From NCBI RefSeq assembly GCF_900168015.1, contig NZ_FUYR01000002.1, positions 826,932-890,931 on the forward strand: a DNA stretch of 64,000 nucleotides, read 5' to 3'. Positions 47,326 to 54,101 of this stretch are shown here, piece by piece. The notes under the pieces are model-generated. The model was given only the letters and a program-made list of their open reading frames with translations, was not told where the DNA came from and made no database searches. A program made the translations under genes and the position numbers. Position 1 is the first letter of the stretch. The number at the start of each line of letters is the position of its first letter. Origin of the DNA: Daejeonella lutea (GTDB lineage Bacteria > Bacteroidota > Bacteroidia > Sphingobacteriales > Sphingobacteriaceae).

Positions 47326-48381
47326 TTAGAGAAAGAAACTCAATATGGTGTAAATGAGTGCGGCAAGTGCGGCCGATACTGGTATAGTAAGCACCCATGC
47401 CCACATCAGACTGATGGTAACACCCCATCGTACCGCTGAGACACGTTTACTTAACCCTACGCCGATAATTGCACCGGTAATTGTATGTGTTGTGGAAACC
47501 GGAATTTTAAAGTATTCTGTAAAAAATAAAGTCACAGCACCGGCAGTTTCTGCTGCTACACCTTCGAGAGGAGTAACTTTGGTAATTTTAGTTCCCATCG
47601 TCTTAACGATCTTCCAGCCACCACTCATTGTACCAGCTGCAATTGCCGTGTAGCAGGCAATTGGAATCCACTCTGGAATGTGATTAATTTTTACTTTACC
47701 GTCAATTACCGTGTATCCCACGTGCAGCCAGTGCGACATTGTGTCGACACTAAGATTTTCATCTTTTAAGTAAACTATTACTGCAGCAGCAATAATACCC
47801 ATAACCTTTTGTGCATCGTTAGCACCGTGGCCAAGGCTGAAGAGTGCAGATGATGCAAGCTGTAGTTTTTTAAACCACCATTCTGCTCTTGATGGATTGG
47901 CATATCGGCAGATATTTATGATTATTACTGTAATAGTGTAAGCCATGATCATACCGATGATCGGTGCAAGGACGATGAATGCTGCAATTTTCCCGATAAC
48001 GCCTAAATTAATAACATCAAGACCCCCATGCGCAACTGCAGCTCCGGCAAAACCTCCGATTAGCGTGTGGGATGAGCTGGAGGGAATACCAAACCACCAG
48101 GTAAAAAGATTCCAGCAGATAGCAGCAACAACTCCTGCCAGGATTACAACAAGGTTGATATTCATTGTATCAGCCGTCTTAGCGACTGTATCCGCAATGT
48201 TGAGATTGAACAGGAAGTAGGCAAGAAAATTAAAGAATGCTGCCCAAACGACAGCCTGGAATGGTGTAAGTACTTTGGTTGAAACTACAGTTGCAATAGA
48301 ATTTGCAGCGTCATGAAAACCGTTGATGTAATCAAACAGTAATGCTAGAATTATGACGATTATTAGTAATGTAAAACCCAT
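47326..48381 (-). CDS. Inorganic phosphate transporter, Pit family
   Basis: A 351-residue membrane protein with about 8-10 helices. Both halves of the Pit duplication are visible: NGFHDAANSIATVVSTKVLTP near 20-40 and GHGANDAQKVMGII near 195 in the first and central parts, with IPSSSSHTLIGG near 105 and IPVSTTHTITGAIIGVG near 300 as the paired signature. It imports phosphate with a cation. Downstream of a DUF47 gene by 27 bp and near a PhoR-like kinase. Confidence 0.95.
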   Translation of the reverse strand: MGFTLLIIVIILALLFDYINGFHDAANSIATVVSTKVLTPFQAVVWAAFFNFLAYFLFNLNIADTVAKTADTMNINLVVILAGVVAAICWNLFTWWFGIPSSSSHTLIGGFAGAAVAHGGLDVINLGVIGKIAAFIVLAPIIGMIMAYTITVIIINICRYANPSRAEWWFKKLQLASSALFSLGHGANDAQKVMGIIAAAVIVYLKDENLSVDTMSHWLHVGYTVIDGKVKINHIPEWIPIACYTAIAAGTMSGGWKIVKTMGTKITKVTPLEGVAAETAGAVTLFFTEYFKIPVSTTHTITGAIIGVGLSKRVSAVRWGVTISLMWAWVLTIPVSAALAALIYTILSFFL

Positions 48382-48408
48382 GGACTTCGCTGAGGTATCG
48401 TATAATTT

Positions 48409-49056
48409 TTAAGCGTTTTTTACAAGAATTGATTCCAGCACATTCGCCGCATCCTCGCACATATCAGTTGCATCCTCAAGGGCTGATAAGATCTCTTTAT
48501 ACTTGATAAGCTTTACAGCATCTTTTTCATACATAAATAGCTCGCTAACAGCTTTGTCGAAAACATAATCAGCCTGGTTTTCTATGCTATTAATACGAAC
48601 ACACGAGTCAGCGATGATCCTGACATTTTTTAGGTCACGCAGTTCGTGGATCGCTTTATTGAGATCCTGACAAGCTTGAAGGATCAAGCTGGCCAATTCT
48701 TTAATTGGTGGGGTAATTTCGGTAACCTGATATAAGTCGATGCGGCTTGCAGATCCATGAATATAGTCTGCTATATCATCTAATGCACTTGCCAACCTGT
48801 GGATATCTTCCCGGTCAAACGGAGTGATAAAGTTTTTACTTAATTCCAGATGAATCTGGTGAGTAATCTCATCGCCGGTATGCTCGAGATCCTCAATATC
48901 TTTAAAAAGCTCCTTACGACGAGTAAGGTCTTCGGTATTGAGTGCTTCCACAAGCTTTTCACCCAGACTGATCAGGTTTGCGCTATCTTTTTCAAAAAGT
49001 GGGAAGAATTTTTTGTCTTTTGGAATGAAGTACTGAAAGATACTGTTCAATGACAT
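48409..49056 (-). CDS. DUF47 family PhoU-like regulator of phosphate transport
   Basis: A 215-residue all-helical protein. KKFFPLFEKDSANLISLGEKLVEAL at the N-terminus, LEHTGDEITHQIHLELSKNFITPFDREDIHRLASALDDIADYIHG (45-95) and EDATDMCEDAANVLESILVKNA at the C-terminus are DUF47/PhoU signatures. It pairs with the Pit transporter in the same operon and is likely to adjust its activity. Confidence 0.94.
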   Translation of the reverse strand: MSLNSIFQYFIPKDKKFFPLFEKDSANLISLGEKLVEALNTEDLTRRKELFKDIEDLEHTGDEITHQIHLELSKNFITPFDREDIHRLASALDDIADYIHGSASRIDLYQVTEITPPIKELASLILQACQDLNKAIHELRDLKNVRIIADSCVRINSIENQADYVFDKAVSELFMYEKDAVKLIKYKEILSALEDATDMCEDAANVLESILVKNA

Positions 49057-49131
49057 CTCGTGAGGTTTTAAAGAATAAGCAAAAGTACCACACCAATGTT
49101 AAGTTAATGTTAACATTTAAAGCTTTAACTG

Positions 49132-50157
49132 TTACTTGCTTCGTTCTAACGTAAACCCGAAAGTAGAGCCAATGTTTTCAGTACTCCTGACCGTTATTGT
49201 TTGCTGGTGTGCTTCGATGATATGTTTAACGATGGCAAGTCCTAAGCCCGAGCCGCCGATCTGCCTTGAACGGCTTTTATCTGTGCGGTAAAATCTCTCG
49301 AAAAGCCTTGTAAGATACTTTTCTTCTATTCCTATTCCATCATCAGTAATTTCTACCAGAATCTGGTCGTGGAGTTCGAATGTTTTGATCGACGTCGTGC
49401 CGGGACTGTTTCCATACTTGAAAGAATTGTCAATAAGATTTACCAGAACTTGCCTGATTTTTTCCCTATCAGCATTTACCCAGGAGACGTAATTGTATTT
49501 CTCCTTGAATTCCATGGTGATGTTGTATTTCTTTGCCTTAAGCTCCAGGGATTCCATCACTTCCATGATAAGCTCGGCCAGGTCGAATTTGCTGTATTGG
49601 ACAGGTATTTCGCCACTTTCGAGTTTTGAGATAGAATCCAGATCCTTTATAAAGAATGCCAGGCGGTCGACATTTTTGGATGCTTTATCCAGGAACTGCC
49701 TTGCAAGTTCTGGATCATTTTCTTCGTCTTCCTGAATGGCCTCAATATAACCCTGAATAGCAAAGAGAGGTGTTTTAAGTTCGTGCGAAATATTTGACAG
49801 AAATTCCCGCCTGAACTTTTCTTGTTCTTTGAGCTGGTCAATTTCAATTTTTTTGTCTTTGGCCCATTCTTTCACTTCATGTTCTACGTCGTGAATCGGA
49901 TCAGTGCTCACATATTCGCCCAAGGCATCTTTAAGGTCTTTGCCGAGCTTAAGATTATGAATTAGCTTGTAAATTAGCTTAATCTTACTGTAAACGAAAC
50001 GTTCAATGAGGTAGTAAAATACAGCATATGTTATGATGAGCGATACCGAAAAGGTTATTATAAAATCGACCCATTTCTGCTGGAAATAGAAGTTGATGAT
50101 CGACAGGGATAATGCAACGGCTAAAGCGTTAATAAAAACGAGTACCCATAGTTTCAT
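49132..50157 (-). CDS. PhoR-like sensor histidine kinase
   Basis: A 341-residue kinase. Two N-terminal membrane helices (about 3-22 and 32-52) are joined by a very short external loop, so sensing may occur in the membrane or with a partner. Phosphoacceptor His125 is in SNISHELKTP; ATPase motifs NLIDNSFKYG, DDGIGI and GGSGLGLAIV are intact. No response regulator is adjacent. Its place 75 bp upstream of the DUF47-Pit pair on the same strand suggests a role in phosphate sensing (inference). Confidence 0.9.
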   Translation of the reverse strand: MKLWVLVFINALAVALSLSIINFYFQQKWVDFIITFSVSLIITYAVFYYLIERFVYSKIKLIYKLIHNLKLGKDLKDALGEYVSTDPIHDVEHEVKEWAKDKKIEIDQLKEQEKFRREFLSNISHELKTPLFAIQGYIEAIQEDEENDPELARQFLDKASKNVDRLAFFIKDLDSISKLESGEIPVQYSKFDLAELIMEVMESLELKAKKYNITMEFKEKYNYVSWVNADREKIRQVLVNLIDNSFKYGNSPGTTSIKTFELHDQILVEITDDGIGIEEKYLTRLFERFYRTDKSRSRQIGGSGLGLAIVKHIIEAHQQTITVRSTENIGSTFGFTLERSK

Positions 50158-50173
50158 AAGGCTAATTTACTAC

Positions 50174-51289
50174 TTAAAACACTTTGCCATGTGTCTTTTT
50201 CACAATCATTTGATTAAGTGCAGGTAAATTCTTCATTGCAGCTATCGTCATTTCAGCGAGAAATGGGGATCCAAACAAGCGCTGTATATAACGGCCAGAC
50301 TTCAGCCTCATAGAAAATTCTCGGTTCCATCGGCACTTGTATGTTTGCTCCAGGCCTAACCTGTTCAAGGGAACATTTGACGAAAACTGAATTATGGATT
50401 CCGCTAGAATCTTTGCTGAATGAAACGCCATTGCCATTCCGTTTCCACATAGTGGCGTAATCATTCCGGCCGAATCTCCACAAAATAAAAGGTGATTTTC
50501 AACGAGCGTTTTTGGTTCAAATGATATTTCATTGATCACTTCTGGTTTGTCATACAGGAAATCTGAGTTCTCAAGCAAATGTTTCAGGAAAGGATTTTTA
50601 TAGAGTACATGTTTTTCCATATCAGGTATTGAGTGAAACCGTTTCAGGTTAACTGTTTCTGAGAGGTAACATAGATTGAATTTTTGATCCTCGATTTTGC
50701 AAACGCCTGAATACCCACCGTTAAAATTATCTAGCCTAATCAGATTATCGGGCAGATCTGTTTTGATGTGGTACTTTACTCCCAGGTAAGGACTTCGGTA
50801 ATAAAAGAAATTCCGTTTTAATTTTTGATCAAGGTTTGACCGTTTTCCATATGCTGCAATTGCTATTGGGGCAATAGAAATCCGGTTTTCTGCACTCACC
50901 TCGAAAAGGTCATCTTTGAGCTGTACGCCAAGGACTTTTTCGAAACAAAAGGATACACCAAGATTTTTTGCTTCTTGAAATAAATGCTGATCAAGTTTGT
51001 AGCGACTTAAGCCAAAACCACCCAAATCAAGCTGCGATGAAACCCGTCTACCACGAACAGTAGTTAGTTCAAGTTGGGAGATGCGCGAGGGTTGAAGATC
51101 TGAAATGTTTATTTCAAGAGATTGGAGAAAAGGCCAGGCTTCATTAGAAATATATTCACCGCAGACACGATGAAATGGATATTTCTTTTTCTCGAACACG
51201 GTAACTTCAAATCCAGCTTTTTGTAAAAGTATGGAGCAAGTGAGTCCACTGAGTCCTCCACCAATGATTATAACCTTTTTATCGGTCAT
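50174..51289 (-). CDS. FAD-dependent oxidoreductase (geranylgeranyl-reductase/aromatic-hydroxylase-like)
   Basis: A 371-residue flavoprotein. The FAD-binding motifs are IIIGGGLSGLTCSILLQKAGFEVTVFEKKKYPFHRVCGEYIS (6-47) and GDSAGMITPLCGNGMAMAFHSA near 275-296. The VCGEYIS segment is typical of the geranylgeranyl-reductase/halogenase-like group. It is the third gene of a minus-strand operon after a type III PKS and a methyltransferase, with one base between it and the methyltransferase stop. It may hydroxylate or reduce the PKS product. Confidence 0.9.
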   Translation of the reverse strand: MTDKKVIIIGGGLSGLTCSILLQKAGFEVTVFEKKKYPFHRVCGEYISNEAWPFLQSLEINISDLQPSRISQLELTTVRGRRVSSQLDLGGFGLSRYKLDQHLFQEAKNLGVSFCFEKVLGVQLKDDLFEVSAENRISIAPIAIAAYGKRSNLDQKLKRNFFYYRSPYLGVKYHIKTDLPDNLIRLDNFNGGYSGVCKIEDQKFNLCYLSETVNLKRFHSIPDMEKHVLYKNPFLKHLLENSDFLYDKPEVINEISFEPKTLVENHLLFCGDSAGMITPLCGNGMAMAFHSAKILAESIIQFSSNVPLNRLGLEQTYKCRWNREFSMRLKSGRYIQRLFGSPFLAEMTIAAMKNLPALNQMIVKKTHGKVF

Positions 51290-51290
51290 T

Positions 51291-51998
51291 TCACAATGTT
51301 TTTAAAGAGTTGATTATCAGCTGCCACCTGAATGCCCACATCCATTTAAGTTTATAATTTTTGATCCCCGCTTCCTGGAGCATTTTCACAATGTCAGCTT
51401 TTTTAAAGCTTCTCATAACAGATATTTTGGAATCGTGTTTAACCATCTCTGACCTGGAAAATAAAGATGTAAGAACCCCAATTGAATGGAAAGCAAACCA
51501 ATGCCGGTGAAGATCATTTACAATCACTGCAATTCGTGCGCAATCACTCATTTTCTGAATCAGCTTTATCCATTGCGCGTCTTTAAAATGATGAGTAAAT
51601 AGGCTGGATAAAACTATGTCAAATTGATTTGTATGTAAGTCATTGCTGGTTACATCTGCCAGTATGTAGGAAATTTCAGGGAAATCGAAGGACTTAATCC
51701 GTGCATATTCTATAGCCGCTGGGGTTGCGTCAATTCCTATTAATTTAATTTTAAGGCCCTTTTTTCTGGCCCAAATCGCAATTTGCCGTAGTGAGTCGCC
51801 GCCGCCGCAACCCCAGTCGCTGATTGACATTCCATCTTTAATTTTTATTTGTCTGAAAGCATTAAAAAAGACCTTGTAGCCCCCAAGGAGTTTATTAACG
51901 ACTTCCAGCTCGTCCATAATTGGATCAATAACTTCAGGACCGAGCGCGAAATCGTCCATCATTTCATCTTCGGTACTGCGGCGGCTAAAGTCTGGCAT
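51291..51998 (-). CDS. Class I SAM-dependent methyltransferase
   Basis: A 235-residue methyltransferase. Motif I is SISDWGCGGGDSLRQIA (58-74), the acidic residue after strand 2 is in LIGIDATPAAIEYAR, and motif IV is FDIVLSSLFTHHF near 130. The C-terminal region (RWQLIINSLKTL) is basic/hydrophobic. It begins inside the last 14 bases of the PKS gene, a strong sign of translational coupling. It probably methylates an oxygen or carbon of the PKS product. Confidence 0.88.
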   Translation of the reverse strand: MPDFSRRSTEDEMMDDFALGPEVIDPIMDELEVVNKLLGGYKVFFNAFRQIKIKDGMSISDWGCGGGDSLRQIAIWARKKGLKIKLIGIDATPAAIEYARIKSFDFPEISYILADVTSNDLHTNQFDIVLSSLFTHHFKDAQWIKLIQKMSDCARIAVIVNDLHRHWFAFHSIGVLTSLFSRSEMVKHDSKISVMRSFKKADIVKMLQEAGIKNYKLKWMWAFRWQLIINSLKTL

Positions 51999-53109
51999 CT
52001 GAATCTCTCTTTAAGATCATGGATTCAACAGTCAGCCCCGGTCCAAAGGCACATCCAAGAATGGTTTTTTCCTCGCTTGTTTTCTCCGTCAGAATTTTCT
52101 CGAGTACAAAGAGGATGCTGGCTGATGACATATTTCCAAAATCCCGTAGAACCTGATAGCTATAATCATTCTTTTCTTTGGAAAATCCTAAAGCTGTTTC
52201 AGCTGCCTCGAGAATCTTCCTTCCTCCCGGATGAATGGCGTAAGTATTTACATCATCTACGTTCATGCCAGCTTTTTCAAGGGTTTTTGATACTATCGCT
52301 GGGATATGTTTCAGGATGAGTTTGGAAACTTTCGACGTTAATTTCATTTCGAACCCATTATCGCCAATATTCCAGCCCATTTCGTTTTTTGCTGCCGGGA
52401 TAAATTCAGAATAGAAAGTGTCGAGTGAGAGAATATTTCCTGTACCATAACGCTGACATGAACTTTCAACCAAAGCGGCCGCTGCACCATCGGAGAATAG
52501 GGAATTTGCCACCCAATTATCCAGGGTGTTTTCTTTTTGGAAATGTAGAGTGCATAGTTCAATACAAACAATCAGGACTTTTGCATTTTCCTGAGCCCGG
52601 CATATGTAATCTGCGGTTTTAAGAGCATTCAGAGCTCCGTAACATCCCATAAAATTAATGCAAGTTCGCTCAACACTGTGATTTAATCCCAATAGTTCAA
52701 CTAGATTAATGTCAATTCCCGGGGCATACATTCCAGTGCAACTTACCGTTATCAGGTGGGTGATTTTTGAGTAAATATTATTGTCAAAACCCTCTAAGCA
52801 TTTTTTTGCTGCTGCTGCTGCTATTCCTGCTGCCTTCTCCTGGTATTGATCCATTCTGCTAGCCGTACCGGGGAATGGTTTATCATCCTGAAAGCTTTGA
52901 AACAGTTTGCGCTCTCGGTTAACTTTCTTTCCAAAATCAGGAAGGACGGAGAAGCGATGTTCGATTCCGGAATTATCATAGATCAGCTTAAGTCGCGAGG
53001 CGTTATTTTGATCGAGATCAAATGCTTCGACCATAAACTGGTATATATCTTTCTGGGAAGTACGGTATTCCGGATTAGCGGTACCAATTGCGCTTATACA
53101 ACTGCTCAT
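51985..53109 (-). CDS. Type III polyketide synthase
   Basis: A 374-residue chalcone-synthase-like enzyme. The catalytic triad is Cys156 (INFMGCYGALNAL), His293 (YAIHPGGRKILEA) and Asn326 (RDFGNMSSASILF). SCTGMYAPGIDINLVELLGL near 123-142 and SDGAAAALVES near 206-216 are family hallmarks; AFGPGLTVES near the C-terminus is the product-release motif. It extends acyl-CoA with malonyl-CoA to make pyrones, resorcinols or similar. First gene of a three-gene operon; divergent from the UbiA gene. Confidence 0.96.
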   Translation of the reverse strand: MSSCISAIGTANPEYRTSQKDIYQFMVEAFDLDQNNASRLKLIYDNSGIEHRFSVLPDFGKKVNRERKLFQSFQDDKPFPGTASRMDQYQEKAAGIAAAAAKKCLEGFDNNIYSKITHLITVSCTGMYAPGIDINLVELLGLNHSVERTCINFMGCYGALNALKTADYICRAQENAKVLIVCIELCTLHFQKENTLDNWVANSLFSDGAAAALVESSCQRYGTGNILSLDTFYSEFIPAAKNEMGWNIGDNGFEMKLTSKVSKLILKHIPAIVSKTLEKAGMNVDDVNTYAIHPGGRKILEAAETALGFSKEKNDYSYQVLRDFGNMSSASILFVLEKILTEKTSEEKTILGCAFGPGLTVESMILKRDSDARL

Positions 53110-53216
53110 TTATCGTAAAATACTAAATTATCGCACCATTGGTTTTCTTCTTAACATCATTTCTGGCCTCATGTTTTTAAATCAATGTTTCTCGGCATAT
53201 ATAGTAATTTAGTGAA

Positions 53217-54101
53217 ATGGATTCTCAATGGAAACTTTTGCCCAGCCGATCTGCAATCCTGCACATGAGGTTTGGATTCTCTTTTTTTCTGTTGCCGGTT
53301 TTTCTTTTCGCGATGAGCCAGGCTCCTCAAGTCCTTTTTCTAAATGCATTTCTGACTTTTGTTGTTTGGCACCTGTTTGTCTATCCCGCAAGCAACGGCT
53401 ATAACAGTTATTTTGATAAAGATGAGGGAAGCATCGCGCTAATAGAAAAACCACCCAAGGTTGATAAAAGCCTTTATCATTTTTCCTTGATTCTTGATCT
53501 GGCGGGACTTATGCTTGCTGCATTCGTAAATTGGGGCTTATTAATAGCTGTGGTGATTTATGGAGTTTTTTCAAAGCTTTATAGTCATCCATCGGTAAGG
53601 TTAAAAAAGTTTCCGGTCGTGAGTTTTTTAATTGTGTTTATTTTCCAGGGAGCCTGTGTCTATTGGAGCAGTTATGCCGCTATTTCTGGCCTGGAATTGT
53701 CTTCAGGCTGGAACTTAAACTTTTTTGTAGCAGGGTTGATATGTTCCTTTTTGATAGGAGCGACATATCCCCTTACTCAGGTTTACCAGCATGAAGAAGA
53801 TCGGAAGCGAGGAGATAATACTTTAAGCATTCTGCTTGGAATAAATGGATCATTTTATTTCTCAGCCTTTCTCTTTTTAATTTCTATCGTTCTGCTCTGG
53901 TTTTATTGGTATCGCCTGGAACAGATGAATAACTTCTGGTTATTTTTAGTATTTGTAATTCCTGTGATCGTATTTTTCTGCAACTGGCTAATGAAAGTAC
54001 ACAGGGATCCTGATGAGGCGAATTTCAGAAACATGAGTCGCATGACTCTGTTTAGCGGCGGGATGATGGCGATTTATTTTGGGCTGTTAAACTTTATTTA
54101 A
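53217..54101 (+). CDS. UbiA-like prenyltransferase family membrane protein
   Basis: A 294-residue protein with about 8-9 membrane helices. The first Asp-rich motif is NGYNSYFDKDEGS near 62-74 (prenyl diphosphate binding); the second is YQHEEDRKRGDNTLS near 186-200. Both match the UbiA superfamily. It would attach an isoprenoid to an aromatic or polyketide acceptor in the membrane. It is divergent from the type III PKS operon, 107 bp apart, and convergent with the HD gene (4-bp overlap). Confidence 0.85.
   Translation: MDSQWKLLPSRSAILHMRFGFSFFLLPVFLFAMSQAPQVLFLNAFLTFVVWHLFVYPASNGYNSYFDKDEGSIALIEKPPKVDKSLYHFSLILDLAGLMLAAFVNWGLLIAVVIYGVFSKLYSHPSVRLKKFPVVSFLIVFIFQGACVYWSSYAAISGLELSSGWNLNFFVAGLICSFLIGATYPLTQVYQHEEDRKRGDNTLSILLGINGSFYFSAFLFLISIVLLWFYWYRLEQMNNFWLFLVFVIPVIVFFCNWLMKVHRDPDEANFRNMSRMTLFSGGMMAIYFGLLNFI

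Follow-up and report, generated by a model that had tools for sequence, protein, structure and literature searches.

A type III polyketide synthase operon and a divergent UbiA-superfamily gene in Daejeonella lutea as a probable four-enzyme pathway for a prenylated membrane lipid

The agq cluster of Actinoplanes missouriensis, reportedly described by Awakawa in 2011, is said to combine a type III polyketide synthase (PKS), a methyltransferase (MT), a flavin monooxygenase, and a UbiA-like prenyltransferase, and its products are reportedly alkyl-O-dihydrogeranyl-methoxyhydroquinones, in which the chain is reduced (dihydrogeranyl). The srsABC genes of Streptomyces griseus, which we take to make methylated phenolic lipids, presumably have the order PKS-MT-flavoprotein, and we know of no UbiA partner for them. 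The alkylresorcinols of AgqA become prenylated and hydroxylated, and the tested planctomycete members of the PKS-MT-FAD trio make C15/C17 alkylresorcinols, with co-expression of one MT/FAD gene pair leading to a single methylation (PMC10896814). In the hidABC (hierridin) and planctomycete operons, the same three enzyme classes are adjacent in the order MT-FAD-PKS, and no UbiA is reported for these operons, with one exception: a hid-like cluster of the cyanobacterium Raphidiopsis includes a prenyltransferase (PMC8086630). A literature search for type III PKS together with UbiA or a prenyltransferase in Bacteroidetes returned nothing on point.

We analyzed a window of 64,000 nucleotides on contig NZ_FUYR01000002.1 of Daejeonella lutea (family Sphingobacteriaceae; genome of 4.03 Mb), in which the following features were identified, with positions counted from the start of the window.

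49132-50157, minus strand: histidine kinase, PhoR-like, beginning 16 bp beyond the FAD gene
50174-51289, minus strand: FAD-dependent oxidoreductase of a PKS-associated family (371 aa; Pfam FAD [DAO])
51291-51998, minus strand: class I SAM-dependent methyltransferase (235 aa; Pfam Methyltransf_25)
51985-53109, minus strand: type III PKS, first gene of the minus-strand operon (374 aa; Pfam)
53110-53216, no strand: divergent intergenic region of 107 bp, presumed to hold promoters for both directions
53217-54101, plus strand: prenyltransferase of the UbiA superfamily, transcribed away from the PKS operon (294 aa; Pfam UbiA)

The open reading frames reproduced the positions and spacings of the preliminary description exactly: the PKS and MT genes overlap by 14 bp (51985-51998), a single base (51290) separates the MT and FAD genes, and the divergent starts of PKS and UbiA lie 107 bp apart (53110-53216). 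The spacing of the three minus-strand genes would fit a translationally coupled operon. A promoter scan of the 107-bp region gave no excess over shuffled sequences. Past the FAD gene, the minus strand continues with the histidine kinase, a DUF47 gene, and a phosphate permease (PiT), and the transcript may extend in that direction because the kinase starts so close to the FAD gene, with DUF47 and the permease on the same strand. The kinase is not pathway specific, though possibly co-transcribed, since it was identified in 121 of 121 Sphingobacteriaceae genomes; these include relatives without the PKS, and a phosphate-starvation link specific to the pathway was rejected. A recent foreign origin of the locus was also rejected, with a G+C content of 38-42% that matches the surroundings. 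Identity to a Daejeonella locus (L071) was 86% for HK, 86% for RlmL, and 65% for the PKS, on par with genomes of the same genus.

By its domains and catalytic residues, the first gene of the operon is a type III PKS. Both Chal_sti_synt_N (8.5e-28) and Chal_sti_synt_C (1.4e-26) matched over their cut-offs, and the Cys-His-Asn triad, earlier described as intact, was identified as C156, H293, and N326, invariant in 26 of 26 aligned relatives. The gatekeeper phenylalanines are similarly conserved, F205 in 26/26 and F253 in 24/26 rows of the alignment. The nearest PDB structure by sequence, and the closest solved one, is Mycobacterium Pks18 (1ted; 4.5e-51), whose Cys205 is retained here as C186; the role of this cysteine and the tunnel gate position (Pks18 Asn208, CHS Thr197) were taken from PMC6274091. 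At the gate position, the PKS has His189, invariant across the clade, and because this residue is neither Asn nor Thr, the length of the proposed starter is uncertain. Iterative malonyl extension of an acyl-CoA or ACP-bound starter is predicted, and an alkylresorcinol is not assured as the product because Pks18 makes long-chain alkylpyrones.

Type III PKS matches (E<=1e-30) were identified in 174 of 395 Bacteroidota genomes, and in the tree the matches of the phylum fall in several clades. The clade of the Daejeonella PKS has 43 tips (support 0.98) and comprises Bacteroidota and one nested gammaproteobacterial branch (support 1.0) with Legionella gratiana, L. maioricensis, a plasmid of Psychrobacter urativorans, and two further gammaproteobacteria. 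Within the family sample, this main clade was identified in 45 of 121 Sphingobacteriaceae genomes, and is thus more common than the earlier remark allows, which held such a product to be unexpected from the usual chemistry of the organism. UbiA was present in 43 of these 45 genomes and in 0 of the other 76 (Fisher 8e-31, to be read only as a guide, since the genomes share ancestry and p-values overstate independence), the two exceptions without a UbiA match being G474 and G495. FAD and MT genes were identified in the same 45 genomes and in 7 more, all of a single genus, whose related PKS-MT-FAD cluster lacks UbiA, the MT thus occurring in 52/121 genomes and only in those with the PKS-MT-FAD set; 10 further family genomes with a distant PKS only had no UbiA, FAD, or MT. 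Across the 395 Bacteroidota genomes, the 26 with a PKS match at E<=1.5e-83 are the same 26 that have a UbiA match at E<=6.3e-84, and a weaker UbiA group of 34 genomes, all from one family, is confined to PKS-positive genomes.

The order, orientation, and linkage of the four gene types vary widely among relatives. UbiA lies on a different contig from the PKS in G411 and G441, the FAD gene is away from the PKS in G427 and G440, and in a Mucilaginibacter locus a YceI-like gene stands between UbiA and PKS; YceI proteins are polyisoprenoid binders. All 39 of the named Bacteroidota tested that lack UbiA beside the PKS encode it elsewhere in the genome. UbiA was absent from the gammaproteobacterial recipients of the PKS (0 of 4), and a tblastn search with UbiA against 72,556 plasmids, Streptomyces plasmids included, gave no match. 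Judged by this distribution, UbiA is part of the PKS pathway, because it is confined to the PKS clade, kept when unlinked, and absent from the gammaproteobacterial recipients. A functional link among the four genes is the simplest account of their patchy presence across several families. The preliminary description had proposed one four-gene pathway including UbiA and had pointed to relatives as the place to check it; the co-occurrence found there is strong even for unlinked genes, and the proposal withstood the comparison. That ordinary genes merely came to be inserted beside a phosphate-uptake operon is scarcely credible, since the set recurs across Bacteroidota and its members co-occur without linkage; coincidence can account only for the kinase, found in every family genome, and for DUF47 and PiT, which are unrelated to the pathway.

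The same distribution bears on whether the trio might by itself complete a phenolic lipid that bears no prenyl group, as in hierridin, with UbiA as a neighbor that has another job. Trios without UbiA in Legionella, and neighboring trios on the Psychrobacter plasmid, in Deinococcus, and in a planctomycete, would fit this account, but we regard it as improbable, given that in Bacteroidota UbiA accompanies this PKS clade alone and is retained at a distance from it.

The UbiA protein matched Pfam PF01040 (1.0e-24; 87.6 bits against a cut-off of 34.2). A single-sequence search of the PDB with it gave no match, and a fold model was therefore made (pLDDT 93.3), whose best match was the Archaeoglobus UbiA homologue (4tq4; Z 23.0, rmsd 3.3, 270 aligned), with prenyl diphosphate synthases at Z 14.7; the modeled fold is clearly that of the UbiA superfamily. 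In the alignment, the first motif, N60xxNSYxD67xD69 (NxxNSYxDxD), is conserved, and the second reads Q191HxED195, so that prenyl transfer is less than certain, with an invariant Gln replacing the first Asp of the usual DxxxD. Four other UbiA-like genes were identified in the same genome (heme O synthase, MqnP/UbiA-like, EboC, and one unclassified). A role in menaquinone or heme synthesis was rejected as unlikely because the genome carries the heme O synthase and MqnP/UbiA-like genes and because the UbiA studied here is missing from most of the Sphingobacteriaceae.

The MT matched Methyltransf_25 (1.9e-12), and its closest curated model, NF004851, scored 152 bits, under the cut-off of 243. The flavoprotein matched Pfam FAD (DAO) at 1.2e-8, and its top curated model, GG-red-SF (TIGR02032), reached 82.3 bits, below the cut-off of 158.8. 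The structure model of the flavoprotein (pLDDT 88.9) was closest to FAD halogenases (Z 36.7, rmsd 2.8, 358 aligned; PltA best), followed by 3-hydroxybenzoate 6-hydroxylase (Z 34.4) and, ranked lower, a geranylgeranyl-reductase-like protein (Z 31.4), in structural tables that are incomplete for flavoprotein families, so that absence from them was not counted as evidence. A halogenase was rejected despite the PltA match, as the sequence has no WxWxIP motif. The overall FAD fold, as modeled, agrees with group A aromatic hydroxylases, but the DG motif is altered, with AxGKRSNLD where UbiH and PHBH have DGxxSxxR. The preliminary comparison of this protein with flavoprotein hydroxylases is therefore corrected: by sequence it is not a typical UbiH-like hydroxylase, in view of its best curated model, its nearest folds, and the altered motif, and we assign it to a PKS-associated family with a predicted GGR/halogenase-like flavin monooxygenase fold.

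The flavoprotein could instead reduce the prenyl chain once this is attached, in the manner of a geranylgeranyl reductase, and not act on the ring. This agrees with the top curated model, even below its cut-off, with the motifs VCGEYIS and GDxAGxxxPxxGxG read from the alignment, and with the reduced chain that the agq product is said to carry. We nevertheless consider a prenyl-chain reductase unlikely: the same flavoprotein (41-45% identical) is found in the 7 PKS-MT-FAD genomes without UbiA, its homologues adjoin type III PKS genes in alphaproteobacteria, and halogenases and the aromatic hydroxylase rank above the geranylgeranyl-reductase-like protein in the fold comparison. From the UbiA-less clusters and the alphaproteobacterial homologues, its substrate is probably the polyketide.

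We consider it likely that the four enzymes form a pathway for a prenylated, methylated membrane lipid of the alkylresorcinol or hydroquinone type. Starting from a fatty-acyl unit, the PKS would add malonyl units and close the chain to an alkylresorcinol (or alkylpyrone), the FAD enzyme would oxidize or hydroxylate the ring, the MT would methylate an oxygen or a ring carbon, and the membrane-bound UbiA would add a prenyl or polyprenyl chain, giving a prenylated, methylated alkyl-hydroquinone or quinone-like membrane lipid. The assignment to one pathway is well supported; the substrates, the step order, the kind of ring, and the length of the prenyl chain are inferred, as is a function as redox carrier, protective lipid, or envelope component. 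The membrane phenolic lipid or prenylated polyketide suggested in the preliminary description thus stands as the most likely class. To our knowledge, no product has been described from any member of the Bacteroidota. More tentatively, and with considerable doubt, the polyketide alkyl chain and the (poly)prenyl chain could sit on one methylated hydroquinone ring, as a previously undescribed lipid class widespread in Bacteroidota and a second lipoquinone beside menaquinone, made with a UbiA subfamily that has an altered (Gln) second motif.

The tight linkage of the four genes shows which ones to express together, with a prenylated phenolic lipid as the target, and the gammaproteobacterial recipients without UbiA offer a natural control. 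If the lipid is redox active, current surveys of lipids and quinones overlook a membrane component in a large group of bacteria from soil and water.

Compared with known systems, the gene order PKS-MT-flavoprotein is presumably the same as that of srsABC, as the preliminary description had noted for actinomycete operons, but the flavoprotein here is not UbiH-like, and the order is not diagnostic because it varies among relatives and other phyla have MT-FAD-PKS or PKS-MT-FAD. In sequence, the trio resembles the hierridin type through the planctomycete, Deinococcus, and Psychrobacter trios, which were compared in place of hidABC itself: their PKS are 37-46% and their MT 25-26% identical to the genes here, FAD identity is 20-24% for Psychrobacter and Paludisphaera (the latter with a PKS at 37% and a flavoprotein at only 24%), and the FAD of the Deinococcus trio gave no BLAST match to the one here. 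Daejeonella and its relatives differ from these systems in that the partnership is constant throughout the phylum and the UbiA subfamily is a separate one, in a phylum for which no characterized type III PKS product was found in the literature searched. The agq cluster reportedly has the same four enzyme classes, a likeness at the level of enzyme class; it is an actinomycete cluster, whereas the Bacteroidota set is kept phylum-wide, with its genes often dispersed.

The type III PKS proteins encoded at the following gammaproteobacterial loci were nested within the Bacteroidota PKS clade, which suggests transfer of the PKS between Bacteroidota and Gammaproteobacteria.

L098, L142, L114, L134, and L182: gammaproteobacterial PKS loci, one each from Legionella gratiana, L. 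maioricensis, a plasmid of Psychrobacter urativorans, and two other Gammaproteobacteria

The UbiA prenyltransferase gene was absent from all 4 gammaproteobacterial genomes searched. In the genome holding the window, contig C7 carries at 191891-192343 a gene for an EboC-like UbiA relative (NF035940, 386 bits), which serves as an ebo operon marker.

Downstream of the FAD gene in the window lie the following genes, of which the histidine kinase was universal in Sphingobacteriaceae (121 of 121 genomes).

47326-50157, minus strand, as the FAD gene: histidine kinase, DUF47, and PiT phosphate permease

At one Mucilaginibacter locus, a YceI-like gene of the polyisoprenoid-binding type (L072:5364-5903) sits between UbiA and PKS, and related loci carry a similar-sized ORF at the same position. 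At the loci covered from Rufibacter and Hymenobacter, a gene of about 260 aa adjoins the unlinked UbiA (L177:4542-5324, L178:6195-6983); it had no match in Pfam and is possibly a fifth pathway member there.

A further type III PKS cluster, with gene order FAD-MT-PKS, was identified in other Bacteroidota genera (L057:4116-10476, L059, and L063:3504-8906), its PKS standing at 28% against the window PKS. After these genes come FabZ-, FabF-, carrier-protein-, and phosphopantetheinyl-transferase-like genes, as classed from sequence, along with an SDR in L057 (Pfam scan). The cluster appears to be a small, self-contained fatty-acid synthase supplying a type III PKS.
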